A stretch of DNA of 35,187 nucleotides from Herpetosiphonaceae bacterium (GTDB taxonomy: Bacteria; Chloroflexota; Chloroflexia; Chloroflexales; Kallotenuaceae), in assembly GCA_036374795.1 (NCBI GenBank), contig DASUTC010000373.1, positions 1 through 35,187 of the forward strand. The letters run 5' to 3'. The stretch's first letter is position 1, and each line of letters starts with the position of its first letter. Of the stretch, positions 14,124-34,564 are shown one piece after another. The notes under the pieces were generated by a model. That model was not told the origin of the DNA. It did not search any database and saw only the letters and a list, made by a program, of their open reading frames with translations. The position numbers were made by a program, and so were the translations under genes.

Positions 14124-14129
14124 CGCCGT

Positions 14130-14255
14130 CAGAACAAAGAACGGGCGTCCGGCACACAAAGCATAGACAGAGAAGCAAGAACCGAGAACTAAGAGCCGGG
14201 GGCAGGAAACTCGAAACTTCCTGCCCCCGACCCCTGATCCTCGACCCCTGATCGT
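14130..14255 (+). repeat. Intergenic three-part repeat, copy 2, with strong hairpin
   Basis: Same order as copy 1: AGAACAAAGAAC and AAGAACCGAGAACTAAGAG units, then GAAACTCGAAACTT, then CCCCTGATCC and GACCCCTGATC units. Inside, CGGGGGCAGGAA (14197-14208) pairs perfectly with TTCCTGCCCCCG (14218-14229), a 12-bp stem with a nine-base loop and no T-run after it. It sits after fbp and could slow or stop transcription of the PTS operon, but it is not a classical terminator. Confidence 0.6.
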
Positions 14256-14342
14256 TGAATGTTGAGCTCGAAACACAGAAGGCGCATCTTCGCGTAACCA
14301 CAGGCCCATCGCAGGCGTTCCAATGGGTGAAGGAGGAGAGCC

Positions 14343-14918
14343 ATGCAAGGAGTTCAAGGACGGCAACGCCGGATGTACGTGAGCGTCCTGGCGCTCATCG
14401 GAGCGCTCGTGCTCGCGAGCAGCCTGGTGTATGAGCAGCGCGCAACGGCAAGCTCGACACGAGGTGCGACTGTCGCGCTGATTGCGCCAGCCCATGCGCG
14501 CGCAGGCACCCTGATCTCGGTCGATCTGGTTGCGCACAACGTCCGTAACCTGGCGGGGTATCAGGCGACGGTCGAGTTCAATCGCGATCAGGTGCGGCTG
14601 GTCGGAGCGTCAATCGCGGACGATCTCAGAGGCAGCGGGCGAGACTTTCTGCCGCTTGGGCCACTTCAGCGCGAGGGCGCGGTTGTCCTCGGAGCGGCGA
14701 GCTGTCCGGCTCAGGTATGCAGCGATCCGCGTCCGACACACGCCCGCCGCGTCGAGCGCGGCATCGACGGGCGGGTTAAGCTGGGCACCGTGCGGCTGTA
14801 TGTCGGCACGCCGGGAGCATACCCGCTGACGCTCGCCGATGTACGTCTCGTCGATCCACAGGGCCAGGCTTTGCCGGTCACGGCATCTGCCATCGTGCTT
14901 AACGTCAGCGATACGTAG
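14343..14918 (+). CDS. Secreted cohesin-domain protein
   Basis: A 191-residue protein with an N-terminal signal or anchor segment (about residues 12-37, YVSVLALIGALVLASSLVY) and one cohesin-like domain over most of the rest. Cohesin features are AGTLISVDLVAHNVRNLAGY near 54-73 followed by QATVEFNRDQVRLVGAS, and the closing strands VKLGTVRLYV and YPLTLADVRLVDPQG. Cohesins bind dockerin modules calcium-dependently. The next gene encodes a dockerin-like module, so the two products may bind each other outside the cell. AGGAGG (14331-14336) precedes the ATG. No catalytic domain and no cell-wall sorting motif is present. The cohesin call is from pattern recognition, not a profile search. Confidence 0.78.
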   Translation: MQGVQGRQRRMYVSVLALIGALVLASSLVYEQRATASSTRGATVALIAPAHARAGTLISVDLVAHNVRNLAGYQATVEFNRDQVRLVGASIADDLRGSGRDFLPLGPLQREGAVVLGAASCPAQVCSDPRPTHARRVERGIDGRVKLGTVRLYVGTPGAYPLTLADVRLVDPQGQALPVTASAIVLNVSDT

Positions 14919-14997
14919 GCTACCTATGTTCAGTGTTACCCGCGTTGTGCAACGATAGGGTATGCTGCTGCAACGATTGCTGGAAAGAGAACCGCTT

Positions 14998-17541
14998 ATG
15001 CTTCTGACGAAACGTAGCCTGTGGCGCTGGTGGACCCTGGCGACACTGAGCATGATGCTCGTCGCAGCCGCGTTCGGACAGGCCATGCCCACATTCGCGC
15101 AGACCGGCAGCAATCCCGATGCGCGCCTCGATCTCACCGGCAACCTACTGATTGACGATGCCGACGCGGCCAGCGTGATCGAAAGCTGGCGGAGCGCCTA
15201 TGAGCTTGGGCCATGCAGCGCGGCCCTCCAGACCGATCATGATCTGGATGGCAACGGCTGTGTCGATGTCGGCGATGTCCAGGCGGTATTCGCGCAGTGG
15301 GGCACGCGCACGAGCTCATCCGCCCCGGTGGCGGAGGCAGACCCGGCGGCAACCACCTACTCCGAAGCCTTCTACACGGTGAACTCGGCAGGCAACGACA
15401 ACGACGCCGACACGAGCGACGGGCTGTGCCGGACAGCCGGGAACACCTGCACCCTGCGCGCGGCGCTGACGCAGGCCAATACGCGCCTCGGCCCCGAAAC
15501 GATCACCTTTAATATTCGCAACGCGGACGGCTCGTGCCCCGCGCTGGTGACGATCGAGGCTCCCCCTGGTGCGAGCGGCTTCCGCATCGAGGACAAGTCG
15601 GGCCGGGTTGTGCTCGACGGATACACGCAGTGCGGCGCGTCGCCCAACACGCTGGCGGTCGGCGGCAACGCCGTGATCAAAATCGAGCTGAAGGGCAATC
15701 GGACGATAGATGTCAACGGCCTGTCGATCTACTCGTCCGGCAACATCGTGCGCGGCCTGGCGATCTACAACTGGGACTTTCAGATCAAGCTGCTCTACGG
15801 CGCGGCGAAGGACAATCGCATCGAGGGCAACTTCCTGGGCACGAATGCAAGCAATAGCTTTCAGTATGAAACCTCAAGCCCGTTCGGAGAGAATCACCAC
15901 GAGGGCGTGAGAATCCAGGGCGGCGGCGACGGCCCGGCGCGCAATATCATCGGCGGGACGACGCCGGATAAGCGCAACATCATCTCCGGCAACCGCAAGG
16001 ACGGCCTCAAAATCCAAGGGGCGGGCGCGCGGGAGAACCGCATCATCGGCAATTACATCGGCTTGAAACAGGACGGCGCGACTCCGCTGCGCAATTACAG
16101 CGACGGCGTGGACTTCGAGTTCGGCGTCAAGTCCAACTGGCTGGGCGGGACGACTGTCGGTGAGCGCAATGTGATCAGCGGCAACTTTTCCGAAGGCATT
16201 GAGATCTCGCATGATCCCGGCACGCAATATAACTCCGTCGTCGGCAACTACTTTGGGCTAACCGCTGATGGCAGACGTGCCGCGAGCTACGGCAACTCGG
16301 AGACGGGCATATCCTTTGAAGACGCAGTTGACTCGAACTACGCCTATAACAACGTTATCGGCGGTAACGGCACCAGCGGCATCTTCTTTTTCATCCTGGG
16401 CACCAACAACGAAGTCTATAACAACAAGATCGGCGTGGCCGCGGATGGGTCGACTCCGGTGCCCAACGGCTATCAGACCTCCTTCGATGGGCGCACGCCG
16501 CCGTACTACGAGCGTAACGGCATCACGATCATGGGTGGGAGCCAGCGGAACAAGATCCACCACAACCTGATCGCGCATCATCCGGGCGATGGCATCGTGC
16601 TGAAAAATACGTCCGACGCCGCGCATAATCACTTTGGCGAAACGTACTACAACACGATCAGCCAGAACAGCCTCTTCAACAATGGCGATCCCTCGGTGAG
16701 CGAGAGCGGCGCGATCGACGGCGTCTGGCTGAAGCCCTACTATGTCAACGGAGCCTGGACCTACCCGAACCAGGGATTACCCGCGCCGACGCTGACGAGC
16801 GCCACGACATCGGGCGTGCGCGGAGCAGCGCGCACCCGCAGCAATCAGGCGTGCGCCGGATGTACGATCGAGGTCTTTATTGCCGACAAGCCGAGTCTCA
16901 CCGATCCCAGCGGCGATAACGCAGGCGAAGGCAAGACCTTTATCGGCAGTGGGACGACCGACGCCAGCGGAAGCTTCGCCTTCAGCGTGAGCGGCGTGGC
17001 ACAGGGCCAGCTTGTGACTGCGACGGCGACTGATACGCTCGGCAATACCTCGCAGTTTAGCAGCAATGTGGCTGTGGCCGCCGGCTCAAACAGGATCGCC
17101 CTGCCCGGACGCTTCGAGGTCGAAGACTACAACCCAGGCGGCGAAGGAGTCGGCTACCACGACACCACTGCGGGCAACTCCGGCGGGAAGTATCGCGCCG
17201 ATGATGTCGATATTCAGACGACGACGGATACCACCGGCAGCTTCAACGTCGGCTATATCGTCGCCGGTGAGTGGCTGGCCTACGATGTGAACGTGACGAC
17301 AGCGGGCAGCTACCGCTTTACTGTGCGCGCCGCCACGCCGTACAGCGGCAGATCGTTGCATATCGAGATCGATGGCGTGAACGTGACGGGGCCGCTGGCA
17401 GTGCCACAGACGGGCGGCTGGCAAACCTGGACCAATGTGGTCAGTAGCCCGGTATCACTTACCGCCGGGCCTCACACGCTGCGGATCGCCGCCGATACCA
17501 GCAGCTTCAATCTTAACTATGTGCAGGTGGGTGCTCCGTAA
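14998..17541 (+). CDS. Secreted dockerin-like / CSLREA / beta-helix / CBM6 protein
   Basis: An 847-residue exported protein. After the signal peptide (to about residue 36, PTFAQ) comes a dockerin-like pair of calcium loops, DLTGNLLIDDADAASVI and DHDLDGNGCVDVGDVQAVF. A CSLREA-type segment follows (FYTVNSAGNDNDADTSDGLC, then TCTLRAALTQAN), then a long right-handed beta-helix of repeated INxIxGN / NVISGN turns (about residues 190-570). A short Ig-like segment precedes a C-terminal CBM6 carbohydrate-binding domain (RFEVEDYNPGGEG to the end). GGAAAGAGA before the ATG at 14998 and a cleaner signal peptide favour that start over 14962. The beta-helix is of the pectate-lyase-like kind, but no catalytic residues can be assigned. 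It probably binds or acts on polysaccharide at the cell surface. Confidence 0.85.
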   Translation: MLLTKRSLWRWWTLATLSMMLVAAAFGQAMPTFAQTGSNPDARLDLTGNLLIDDADAASVIESWRSAYELGPCSAALQTDHDLDGNGCVDVGDVQAVFAQWGTRTSSSAPVAEADPAATTYSEAFYTVNSAGNDNDADTSDGLCRTAGNTCTLRAALTQANTRLGPETITFNIRNADGSCPALVTIEAPPGASGFRIEDKSGRVVLDGYTQCGASPNTLAVGGNAVIKIELKGNRTIDVNGLSIYSSGNIVRGLAIYNWDFQIKLLYGAAKDNRIEGNFLGTNASNSFQYETSSPFGENHHEGVRIQGGGDGPARNIIGGTTPDKRNIISGNRKDGLKIQGAGARENRIIGNYIGLKQDGATPLRNYSDGVDFEFGVKSNWLGGTTVGERNVISGNFSEGIEISHDPGTQYNSVVGNYFGLTADGRRAASYGNSETGISFEDAVDSNYAYNNVIGGNGTSGIFFFILGTNNEVYNNKIGVAADGSTPVPNGYQTSFDGRTPPYYERNGITIMGGSQRNKIHHNLIAHHPGDGIVLKNTSDAAHNHFGETYYNTISQNSLFNNGDPSVSESGAIDGVWLKPYYVNGAWTYPNQGLPAPTLTSATTSGVRGAARTRSNQACAGCTIEVFIADKPSLTDPSGDNAGEGKTFIGSGTTDASGSFAFSVSGVAQGQLVTATATDTLGNTSQFSSNVAVAAGSNRIALPGRFEVEDYNPGGEGVGYHDTTAGNSGGKYRADDVDIQTTTDTTGSFNVGYIVAGEWLAYDVNVTTAGSYRFTVRAATPYSGRSLHIEIDGVNVTGPLAVPQTGGWQTWTNVVSSPVSLTAGPHTLRIAADTSSFNLNYVQVGAP

Positions 17542-31449: not shown

Positions 31450-31998
31450 ATGGAAGGCTATATCGCCGAGATCAGGTTGTTCGCTGGAAACTTTGCGCCG
31501 CGCGGGTGGGCGTTCTGTAACGGTCAAATTCTCTCAATCGCTCAGAACACGGCGCTCTTTGCGCTCTTGGGCACAACCTACGGCGGCAACGGCCAGACCA
31601 CGTTTGCACTGCCCGATCTACGCGGGCGAGTCGCCGTTGGCCCAGGTCAGGGGCCTGGATTGCCAGCCGTGAATCTTGGTCAGATGTCGGGCGAACCAAC
31701 GCACACGCTGATCATCACCGAGATGCCCGCCCATAACCACACTACCCAGGTGACAATCAGGGCGTTCGATGAAGGCTTTGGCGGCGGTGGCAACTCCTCC
31801 GTACCGACGAATAACTACTGGAGTTCGGTTGCGAGCGGCGCGCCCTACAACAACACGTCGAACACGACGATGAACGCCGCGGCGGTCCAGAGCGTCATCG
31901 GCGTTGCGGGTGGCAGCCAGCCGCATAACAACATGCAGCCCTACCTCGGCGTCAACTATATCATCTGCATGGAAGGCATCTTCCCGTCGCGCAACTAG
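31450..31998 (+). CDS. Tail-collar-domain protein
   Basis: A 182-residue protein of the phage-tail-collar / microcystin-dependent-protein type. It begins with EGYIAEIRLFAGNFAPRGWA and FCNGQILSIAQNTALFALLG, has TTFALPDLRGRVAVGPGQG near residue 55 and MPAHNHTTQV near 94, and ends with QPYLGVNYIICMEGIFPSRN. All are hallmark positions of this domain. AGGAGG precedes the ATG. No other phage gene is nearby, so it is more likely a bacterial surface or secreted protein of the stand-alone type than part of a prophage. A fragment of a second copy lies at 34786-34828. No signal peptide is visible. Confidence 0.9.
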   Translation: MEGYIAEIRLFAGNFAPRGWAFCNGQILSIAQNTALFALLGTTYGGNGQTTFALPDLRGRVAVGPGQGPGLPAVNLGQMSGEPTHTLIITEMPAHNHTTQVTIRAFDEGFGGGGNSSVPTNNYWSSVASGAPYNNTSNTTMNAAAVQSVIGVAGGSQPHNNMQPYLGVNYIICMEGIFPSRN

Positions 31999-32085: not shown

Positions 32086-32379
32086 GCTACCGGCAACGGG
32101 AGCGCATCCCTGCGCCGCGAGCCTGGTAGCCACGCGCGCGATTGTGGTCGTGCGTCATCGGGGGCTTGGTTGTCAGTCAAGAACACGTTTCATTTAACTG
32201 TCGCTTTGCCCTGTGCGAGTGTGTCCTCGTGGTACTTCGCTGGCAGAAATGGAGCACTCCCTCATGCGTAGAATGGCCCCGTGGACGGTCGCGCTGACCG
32301 GGCTGCTGGTGCTGGTGCTGATCTGGCCCGCCGCCCAGGTCGCCTCCGCCGCCACGATCGTCGTCAATCCGGGTGGTGG
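32086..32379 (+). repeat. Segmental duplication, copy 1 (adhesin promoter region and start)
   Basis: It matches 34894-35187 at a constant offset of 2808 bases. From 32243 on (20 bases before the start codon and the signal-peptide coding part) the match looks perfect for 137 bases. The upstream 157 bases differ at roughly one base in six. The gap 31999-32263 holds no gene; a weak stem ATGGGA/TCCCAT (32018-32040 region) may end the tail-collar transcript. Confidence 0.9.
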
Positions 32380-34564
32380 CGGCAACTTCACCACCATTCA
32401 GGCCGCGATCAACAACGCCAGCCCCGGCGATACAATCGCCATCCAGACCGGCACCTACCCCGAAAGCCTGGATCTCAGCGCGATGGGCAGTGCGATCGGC
32501 GGCGCGACCGGCAACCTCCAGCTCGTGGCCGTCGATGGTCCCGGCACCGTGACGCTGAGCGGCACAGGCCTCAAGCTGATGCAGAGCGGAGGCTTCAACG
32601 GCAGCCTGATCGTCGACGGGCTGCGCTTCTCGACCAGCAACGACGATGCTATCCGACTTACGAACCTTAATAACCTGCTGCTCGTCAACAGCATCTTCGA
32701 TCCGATCGGCGTAGATAACACGCAGCACAATGGCCTGGAGCTGACGATCAGCAGCGGCGCGCCCAACGTCGTGCTCTACAACAACACGTTCCGCAACATC
32801 GCCAACGATGCGATCGTGATGACCGCGCAGGGAGCATCGCAGCCAACCTTTACGATCGTCGGCAACACGATCAGCGATGACGGCACGGCGGCCAATACCA
32901 CCGACCAGGCGATCGTCCTGACGATGAGCGGCAGCGTGAGCGCCAGCGCGACGATCACCGACAACAGCCTGAGCCAGTTGGAGAGCCGCGCGGTGGTCGT
33001 CGCCGCGACTGAGACGGCGCAGTTCCAGGCGCAGATCGCGCGCAACACCATCAACACGATCACGACGGTCGACCAGGCGATCGTTGCCGAGACGCTCAGC
33101 GGCTCGACGACGGCGCTGCTGGATGTGACGATTGCCGAGAATGCGATCAGCAACGTCAGCAGCGGCACAGGGGTGCTGGTCGGCCTGAGCGGCGTGACGA
33201 CCACGCTCAGCACGCCGCGCATCGTCGCCCGTATCGTACGGAACACGCTGACGAATATCGGCGGCAACGACTTCGACCGGGGCATCGCGATCATCCCGAT
33301 CAACGACACCAACGTGGACGGGACGATCAGCCTGCTCGTCGCGGACAACCAGTTGGACGGCAGCGCCGCGTCGGGCCTCTACATCGGCGCGCAGGGCAAC
33401 ACGCAGATCAACGCGACAGTCCGCGACAACACCTTCCGCAACACGGTGCAGTTCACAAGCGCAACCGAGGCCAGCTTCTTCATTGAGAGCAATAACCACA
33501 GCTCAGGGGTGCGGCTGGCGCTCACCAACAACACCGCGACGCCAGCGAACGCTACCAAGACTATTCACCTGATCGATGGGCCTGGAGCGTTTGAATTAGA
33601 GGGCGACCCGACACGGACGACGGCGCAGAACCTAGCGGCGGACAATCCCGGCGCGGCGTCCTCGATCCAGACCCAGGGGCCGATCTCGATCATCACAAGA
33701 GGCACTGTCGTGCCGCCGAACGAGAATCGTCCGCCACGGGCCGAAGACGATAGCGCGACCACGTTCGCCAACACGCCCGTGACGATCAACGTGCTCTCCA
33801 ACGATGTCGATCCTAACCAGGACGCGCTCAGGCTCAGCTTCTTCAGCTTCAACTCGTTCCAGGGCGGTACCGTCACCCGCGACGACAACGGCACGCCTGG
33901 TGATTTGAGCGATGATCGCCTGGTGTACACGCCGCCGACCGGCTTCAGCGGCACGGATACGTTCTACTATACGGTTGTCGATAACAGCACGCTTGGCAGC
34001 GCCAGCGATGTGGCGAAGGTGACGATCAACGTCGTCGCGCAGCCGACCAACACGCCGACGGCGACAGCCACCAACACACCGACGCCGACCAACACGGCAA
34101 CAGCAACGCCAACCGATACCGCGACGCCAACTAATACACCGACGGCAACGCCGACTAACACCGCGACGCCGACCAATACGCCAACCAACACGCCAACTAA
34201 TACACCGATTCCGACCAATACGCCGACCAATACGCCAACTAATACACCGATTCCGACCAACACGCCAACCAACACGCCAACCAATACACCGATTCCGACC
34301 AATACGCCAACCAATACACCGATTCCGACCAATACGCCGACCAACACGCCAACTAATACACCGACGCCGACCAATACACCGACCAATACGCCAACTAATA
34401 CACCGATTCCGACCAATACACCGACCAATACGCCCACGGCGACCAATACGCCGACCAATACGCCCACGGCGACCAATACACCGACCAATACGCCGACGAC
34501 GACACCAGTCAGGTATCGGCAGTACCTCCCGATGGTAGCCTATTGGGCTCCAAATCTTGAATGA
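32264..34564 (+). CDS. Secreted beta-helix surface protein with Ig-like domain and Thr/Pro-rich tail
   Basis: A 766-residue exported protein. The start at 32264 has GGAG nine bases before it and opens a clean signal peptide ending near PAAQVASA (residue 29). A right-handed beta-helix follows (about 30-480), starting with [20 protein letters not shown] and [15 protein letters not shown], then repeated NNTFRNI/NTISD-like turns. Next is a cadherin-like Ig domain (about 500-605; [20 protein letters not shown], then [18 protein letters not shown]). A PTNTPT linker of about 150 residues follows, and the protein ends [19 protein letters not shown] recall similar Thr/Pro linkers with YLPLV-like ends in other Chloroflexota secreted proteins, perhaps an attachment signal. 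No catalytic residues are recognised; an adhesin or polysaccharide-binding role is an inference. A second copy starts at 35072. Confidence 0.85.
34045..34506 (+). repeat. PTNTPT coding minisatellite
   Basis: About 460 bases of in-frame degenerate repeats of 12-base (PTNT) and 24-base units (for example ACACCGATTCCGACCAATAC). Codon choice varies between ACG, ACA, CCG and CCA. The run encodes the linker of the surface protein and is prone to length change and to assembly collapse. Confidence 0.92.

Follow-up and report, generated by a model that had tools for sequence, protein, structure and literature searches.

Cohesin and dockerin form a calcium-dependent protein pair familiar from cellulose-digesting machines. 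Cohesins and dockerins outside cellulosomes have been on record since the genome of Archaeoglobus fulgidus, and the roles of most of them are still open; we know of no polysaccharide-locus link and no fused form of the A. fulgidus pair. Strong and specific binding is reported between the cohesin of ORF2376 and the dockerin of ORF2375 (PMC9705933). This pair resembles the one described below in being non-cellulosomal, in being encoded by genes that are neighbours by ORF number and in having the cohesin near the protein start (residues 29-162), but the ORF2375 dockerin lies at residues 432-506, whereas ours is N-terminal. For ANME archaea and the sulfate reducers that partner them, an extracellular or adhesion role has been proposed, with mention of "adjacent cohesin/dockerin domains" (PMC9012536, PMC10553843). 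There too the proposed role lies outside cellulosomes, but the proteins are varied, some have multiple cohesins, and they are not tied to one conserved beta-helix pair. The "Planctosome" of freshwater Planctomycetes, a non-cellulosomal cohesin/dockerin complex inferred from genomes (PMC6461901), differs in consisting of large proteins proposed to hold peptidases, without a beta-helix/CBM6 pair. Monovalent adaptor scaffoldins (PMC11557425) carry one cohesin and one dockerin per chain, as do the fused relatives described below; however, they are cellulosomal, whereas our fused relatives carry a beta-helix and have no accompanying scaffoldin. The arrangement reported here is not described in the titles and abstracts of the open literature on dockerins of Chloroflexi/Chloroflexota, subscription papers lying outside this scope.

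The window, that is, the whole stretch of 35,187 nucleotides that was analysed, is contig G000:C373 of a 7.75 Mb assembly from a bacterium of the Chloroflexota. It was predicted to hold two adjacent genes 79 bases apart, and both open reading frames were confirmed. The frame of the second gene extends over 14962-17541 (+ strand, 859 aa); the ATG at 14998, which is preceded by GGAAAGAG, was chosen as its start, so that the intergenic gap is 79 bases, exact when counted from this ATG. The pair is arranged as follows.

14330..14337, + strand: Shine-Dalgarno-like AAGGAGGA of the cohesin gene (sequence)
14343..14918, + strand: single-cohesin secreted protein, 191 aa (ORF; relatives; independent profile, 91.5 bits)
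14982..14989, + strand: Shine-Dalgarno-like GGAAAGAG of the dockerin gene (sequence)
14998..17541, + strand: dockerin / beta-helix / CBM6 protein, 847 aa from the ATG at 14998 (ORF, start site)

Genes for a fructose-bisphosphatase and an aldehyde dehydrogenase (Pfam) flank the pair. The intergenic stretch upstream of the cohesin gene (14124-14340) consists of short pieces recurring around the genome, with 17 other partial matches, and contains an inverted repeat of 26 bases (14183-14243) whose arms are 77% complementary. Elsewhere in the window, at 32213-34564 and 31450-31998, a secreted protein with a beta-helix-like start (by eye) and Big_9 lies beside a phage tail-collar domain protein.

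Cohesin and dockerin modules

Within the two proteins, the following modules and motifs were located.

14343..14450, + strand: N-terminal signal sequence of the cohesin protein (hydrophobicity; possible cleavage after ATA, residue 36, by eye; alternatively retained as an anchor)
14457..14915, + strand: cohesin module, residues 39-191 (alignments; fold of homologues)
14703..14720, + strand: CPAQVC, the conserved CPxxC of the cohesins (11 of 12 relatives)
14998..15099, + strand: signal peptide of the dockerin protein (hydrophobicity; possible cleavage after TFA, by eye)
15121..15312, + strand: dockerin module (independent profile, 48 bits; alignments)
15130..15165, + strand: calcium loop 1, DLTGNLLIDDAD (loop alignment)
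15241..15276, + strand: calcium loop 2, DLDGNGCVDVGD, with an invariant Cys at loop position 7 (loop alignment)

As a single sequence, the window cohesin had no match in Pfam (including PF00963), NCBIfam or PDB. A profile built from distant fused relatives only, with no window sequence in it, matched the window cohesin at 91.5 bits (E 1.7e-27), against 10.6 bits for the best of 3000 shuffled controls. PF00963 matched four of the seven members of the cohesin family, below or near the cut-off (best E 7.4e-4), and 11 of the 13 chains retrieved from PDB with the cohesin-family profile were cohesins (best E 2.9e-4). The fold was assessed on homologues. Foldseek placed the model of a fused homologue closest to 2xdh, the non-cellulosomal cohesin of A. 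fulgidus (E 1.3e-8), and that of the paralogue on contig C3 of the same assembly closest to cohesin 6kgc (E 2.4e-10). Structural comparison (VIA) of a fused-relative model over its cohesin part, model residues 1-155, gave cohesin 3l8q with Z 14.0, rmsd 2.4 and 138 aligned residues. The homologues thus have the cohesin beta-sandwich, and the window cohesin is tied to them by 46% identity and by the independent profile. The predicted single cohesin in the first protein is borne out by the agreement of the fused-relative profile, the PDB profile matches and the homologue fold.

The window dockerin protein likewise had no PF00404 match as a single sequence. Against the profile made from fused relatives only, the module scored 48 bits (E 4.7e-13), the best of 3000 shuffled controls reaching 12.1 bits, and the cohesin and dockerin modules were the sole significant six-frame matches of the fused-relative profiles in the window. 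PF00404 matched five of the seven dockerin proteins, mostly weakly (best E 3.3e-3), and five of the six fused relatives, one being shown above the cut-off (24.0 versus 22.9). In the Pfam check named in the original prediction, PF00963 and PF00404 miss the single window proteins; with the family profiles the assignment is firm. For the cohesin, a Pfam score above the cut-off tells how far detection reaches and does not define the module. Both predicted calcium loops were found in place, with D at positions 1 and 12 in all 12 dockerins compared; position 5 is N, D or S in every one of them, and the remaining ligand positions are mostly N, D, S or T. The two loops, with acidic or polar residues at positions 1, 3, 5, 9 and 12 in a module of about 60 residues, are those of a type I dockerin. 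Position 7 of loop 2 is always C (n = 12), and a second invariant Cys lies between the loops. The N-terminal place of the dockerin, which had been pointed out as less usual, was confirmed; it is explained by the fused form, in which the dockerin comes straight after the cohesin.

Split and fused relatives and their loci

The adjacent pair recurs as the C3 paralogue in the same genome and in four relatives (G150:C2, G252:C95, G253:C159 and G254:C1134), with gaps of 21-55 bases. The window proteins are 46% (cohesin) and 59% (dockerin/beta-helix protein) identical to those of the C3 pair. At six further loci (G253:C165, G272, G287, G328, G026 and G325) cohesin, dockerin and beta-helix are encoded by one ORF, and genome G253 holds both forms, split (C159) and fused (C165). 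In the trees, one branch (support 100/100 in that of the beta-helix region, 96/93 in that of the cohesin) has every split copy on the same side. A single change between fused and split forms would explain these data; its direction is unsettled, the forks near the root being weak. Since the three parts are found on one polypeptide elsewhere in the phylum, the two window genes can be read as one unit that is split or not yet fused.

Throughout the genome, the fused profile at E 1e-10 or better matched nothing besides the window pair and the C3 pair. A scan of genome contigs with the family alignment gave only three loci, all belonging to this cohesin/dockerin family. Extending the fused-profile search to the phylum brought little more; few candidates were scored in it, so a lack in other genomes is not implied. 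The pair was predicted to lie outside a classical cellulosome, and this stands: the genome search gave only two dockerins of the window family, each adjoining its cohesin. A single-cohesin gene beside a dockerin gene, without a scaffoldin, is the arrangement of the non-cellulosomal pair of A. fulgidus type. A cellulosome was rejected, as the genome has no multi-cohesin scaffoldin, few dockerins and no enzyme set. Besides the window family, the genome encodes two further cohesin ORFs. One of them, a 1279-aa ORF on contig C20 (13973-17812), begins with 14 beta-propeller repeats of the DUF5122 type and continues in the same chain with cohesin, dockerin and cohesin. In a distant Chloroflexota family (G011:C449, 1658-4240), a PKD-dockerin gene is separated by 41 bases from a single-cohesin gene, with a second dockerin gene on the opposite strand; that cohesin has a hydrophobic C-terminal end and a basic tail, and all three genes are above Pfam cut-offs.

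All five split relatives (C3, G150, G252, G253, G254) are within exopolysaccharide loci comprising Bac_transf glycosyltransferase, a Wzz-type chain-length protein, cohesin, dockerin/beta-helix, kinase, Wzy_C, flippase (Polysacc_synt) and further glycosyltransferases, where the genes downstream of the pair were read as far as each contig reaches and Pfam was run on the C3 and G150 representatives. The genome has six Bac_transf genes in 7.75 Mb, so that, by our estimate, only 1-2% of its sequence is 10 kb or less from such a gene. The loci of the split copies probably go back to a single ancestral one and so are not five independent cases; for this reason the 1-2% chance was not multiplied across loci. 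Three fused copies have WecG/Wzy_C, Bac_transf/GT2 or ABC2/Wzt/GT2 as neighbours. The window copy is the only split copy outside a polysaccharide locus, and the fused copy of G253 (C165) is likewise outside; G272 is not among the cases shown. Two fused loci (L075, 3351-4346, and L077, 12288-13301) share a neighbour family of about 330 aa, starting near YVIGGQQRQ or YTVGGKQRQ, and the L075 copy had no Pfam match.

Beta-helix, CBM6 and C-terminal tails

Beyond the dockerin, the second protein was divided as follows.

15376..15480, + strand: CSLREA-like beta-helix start (NCBIfam TIGR04214, E 0.0095, below cut-off)
15499..16749, + strand: right-handed beta-helix region, limits approximate (PF13229, E 6.5e-5, just under cut-off)
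16933..17061, + strand: Ig-like (Big_6-like) stretch (PF17936, E 1.6e-4, below cut-off)
17101..17532, + strand: CBM6 (PF03422, E 1.8e-23; PDB 2y8k/5la2, E 1.2e-27; alignment)

Of the two parts predicted here, the CBM6 is certain: PF03422 scores 83.6 bits against a cut-off of 28.9 and covers profile positions 9-123 of 125. In the window protein the beta-helix narrowly misses the cut-off; PF13229 matches it in six of the seven family members. No glycoside hydrolase domain was found in the window dockerin protein by Pfam. The PDB profile search with the beta-helix alignment retrieved no beta-helix relative, and therefore no catalytic site is proposed; the beta-helix yielded no recognised enzymatic site.

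The CBM6 stands where the copies in exopolysaccharide loci have a Pro-rich linker and a short WLPL-type tail, and among the split copies it is present only in that of the window. Complete copies from the exopolysaccharide loci end, after the Pro-rich linker, in AWFPMVRR, VWLPLITR or VWLPLVFK, and the fragment of G254 (C1134, 3074 bases; same genus) terminates in VWFPLVKP. By eye, two CBM6-like repeats are also present in G325, one of the fused relatives. A short C-terminal motif of the xWLPLxxR/K type, behind a Pro/Ser/Thr-rich linker, was seen in most of L042, L043, L044, L047, L048 and L076, and L080, a single cohesin, has VFLPVV close to its end. The motif might serve to sort proteins to the surface or to anchor them there. 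Both window proteins begin with a hydrophobic signal sequence, and no C-terminal anchor could be recognised in either. Of the predicted minimal cell-surface assembly for carbohydrate binding, the non-cellulosomal pair, likely one assembly, and its carbohydrate-binding end are supported, and the placement at the cell surface is conjectural.

Proposed action and its alternatives

We propose that the two genes would be one functional unit made as two secreted pieces. The small cohesin protein would bind the dockerin at the N-terminus of the beta-helix protein, presumably as a 1:1 complex that depends on calcium, and the binding would rebuild the cohesin-dockerin-beta-helix chain that the relatives make as one polypeptide. 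As the unit of the relatives is mostly found in polysaccharide loci of the Wzx/Wzy or ABC type, it would most likely act on the cell's own exopolysaccharide, which it would bind, organise or trim; we infer this action from the setting. The window copy would be a paralogue outside such a locus, with the CBM6 tail presumably directing the same complex to a polysaccharide. For the whole of this explanation, a two-piece cohesin/dockerin unit acting on the cell's own exopolysaccharide with the window copy re-aimed by its CBM6, we estimate a probability of about 0.6.

Packing of the dockerin on the cohesin is predicted by structure models. In the AlphaFold2 model of a natural fusion, the dockerin was placed against the cohesin with a pTM of 0.86, pTM being a global score. 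For the C3 paralogue of the window pair, the two stop codons were translated as sense codons (NCBI table 6), which joined the proteins and put some 50-60 residues of meaningless linker between the modules; this tethered pair gave a pTM of 0.80, also a global score. In this model 48 of 275 residues were under pLDDT 70, both modules were mostly above 90 and the linker blocks were at 45-61. By our estimate, pTM would stay near 0.6 if the modules were placed uncertainly relative to each other, since only 55-63% of the chain is cohesin. Cohesin-dockerin complexes have already been seen by AlphaFold2. The window cohesin and dockerin may thus bind each other.

The modules could instead be merely cohesin- and dockerin-shaped and not bind each other. 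In that case the cohesin would be a beta-sandwich module for adhesion in general, and the dockerin would cap the beta-helix as a structural element that binds calcium. The missing Pfam matches of the single window sequences agree with this, as do the match of the dockerin profile to calmodulins in PDB and the conserved cysteines, which could mean disulphide-stabilised structural modules. Yet the strict pairing across genomes, the fusion in relatives, the one-to-one numbers in the genome and the predicted packing argue against it, and we regard it as unlikely. In another arrangement the modules would assemble head to tail, each dockerin binding the cohesin of another molecule, so that the fused form would make chains in a matrix and the split cohesin would be a stopper or linker. 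Relatives do carry both modules on one chain, and scaffoldins that act as adaptors, with a single cohesin and a single dockerin, are known (PMC11557425); however, the natural-fusion model places both modules confidently within one chain, and the split form, lacking a second binding module, would be unable to chain by itself. Such an assembly appears improbable. The CBM6 on the window protein might also suggest a minimal cellulosome-like device digesting plant polysaccharide at the cell surface. This has very little probability, as the window protein has no glycoside hydrolase domain, the genome has neither a many-cohesin scaffoldin nor a set of dockerin enzymes, and the relatives sit in biosynthesis loci.

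Adjacent non-cellulosomal cohesin/dockerin pairs as such are already known from A. fulgidus. What looks new here is the polysaccharide-locus setting, the alternation of one-gene and two-gene forms, and a type of dockerin whose loop contains a cysteine. The two-piece unit is a one-to-one pair with recurring polysaccharide loci, fused relatives that show which cohesin matches which dockerin, and one copy whose carbohydrate end differs, and this combination makes binding and function directly testable. Being compact and having conserved cysteines in each module, the pair might also serve as an affinity tag. The setting of the relatives suggests a use unrelated to cellulose digestion. As a tentative generalisation, in which we have less than even confidence, export loci of Chloroflexota would encode a secreted cohesin-dockerin-beta-helix complex, of two subunits or fused, for binding or finishing the exopolysaccharide that the cell itself makes; the complex would have changed between one gene and two and been redirected when a CBM6 took the place of its tail.
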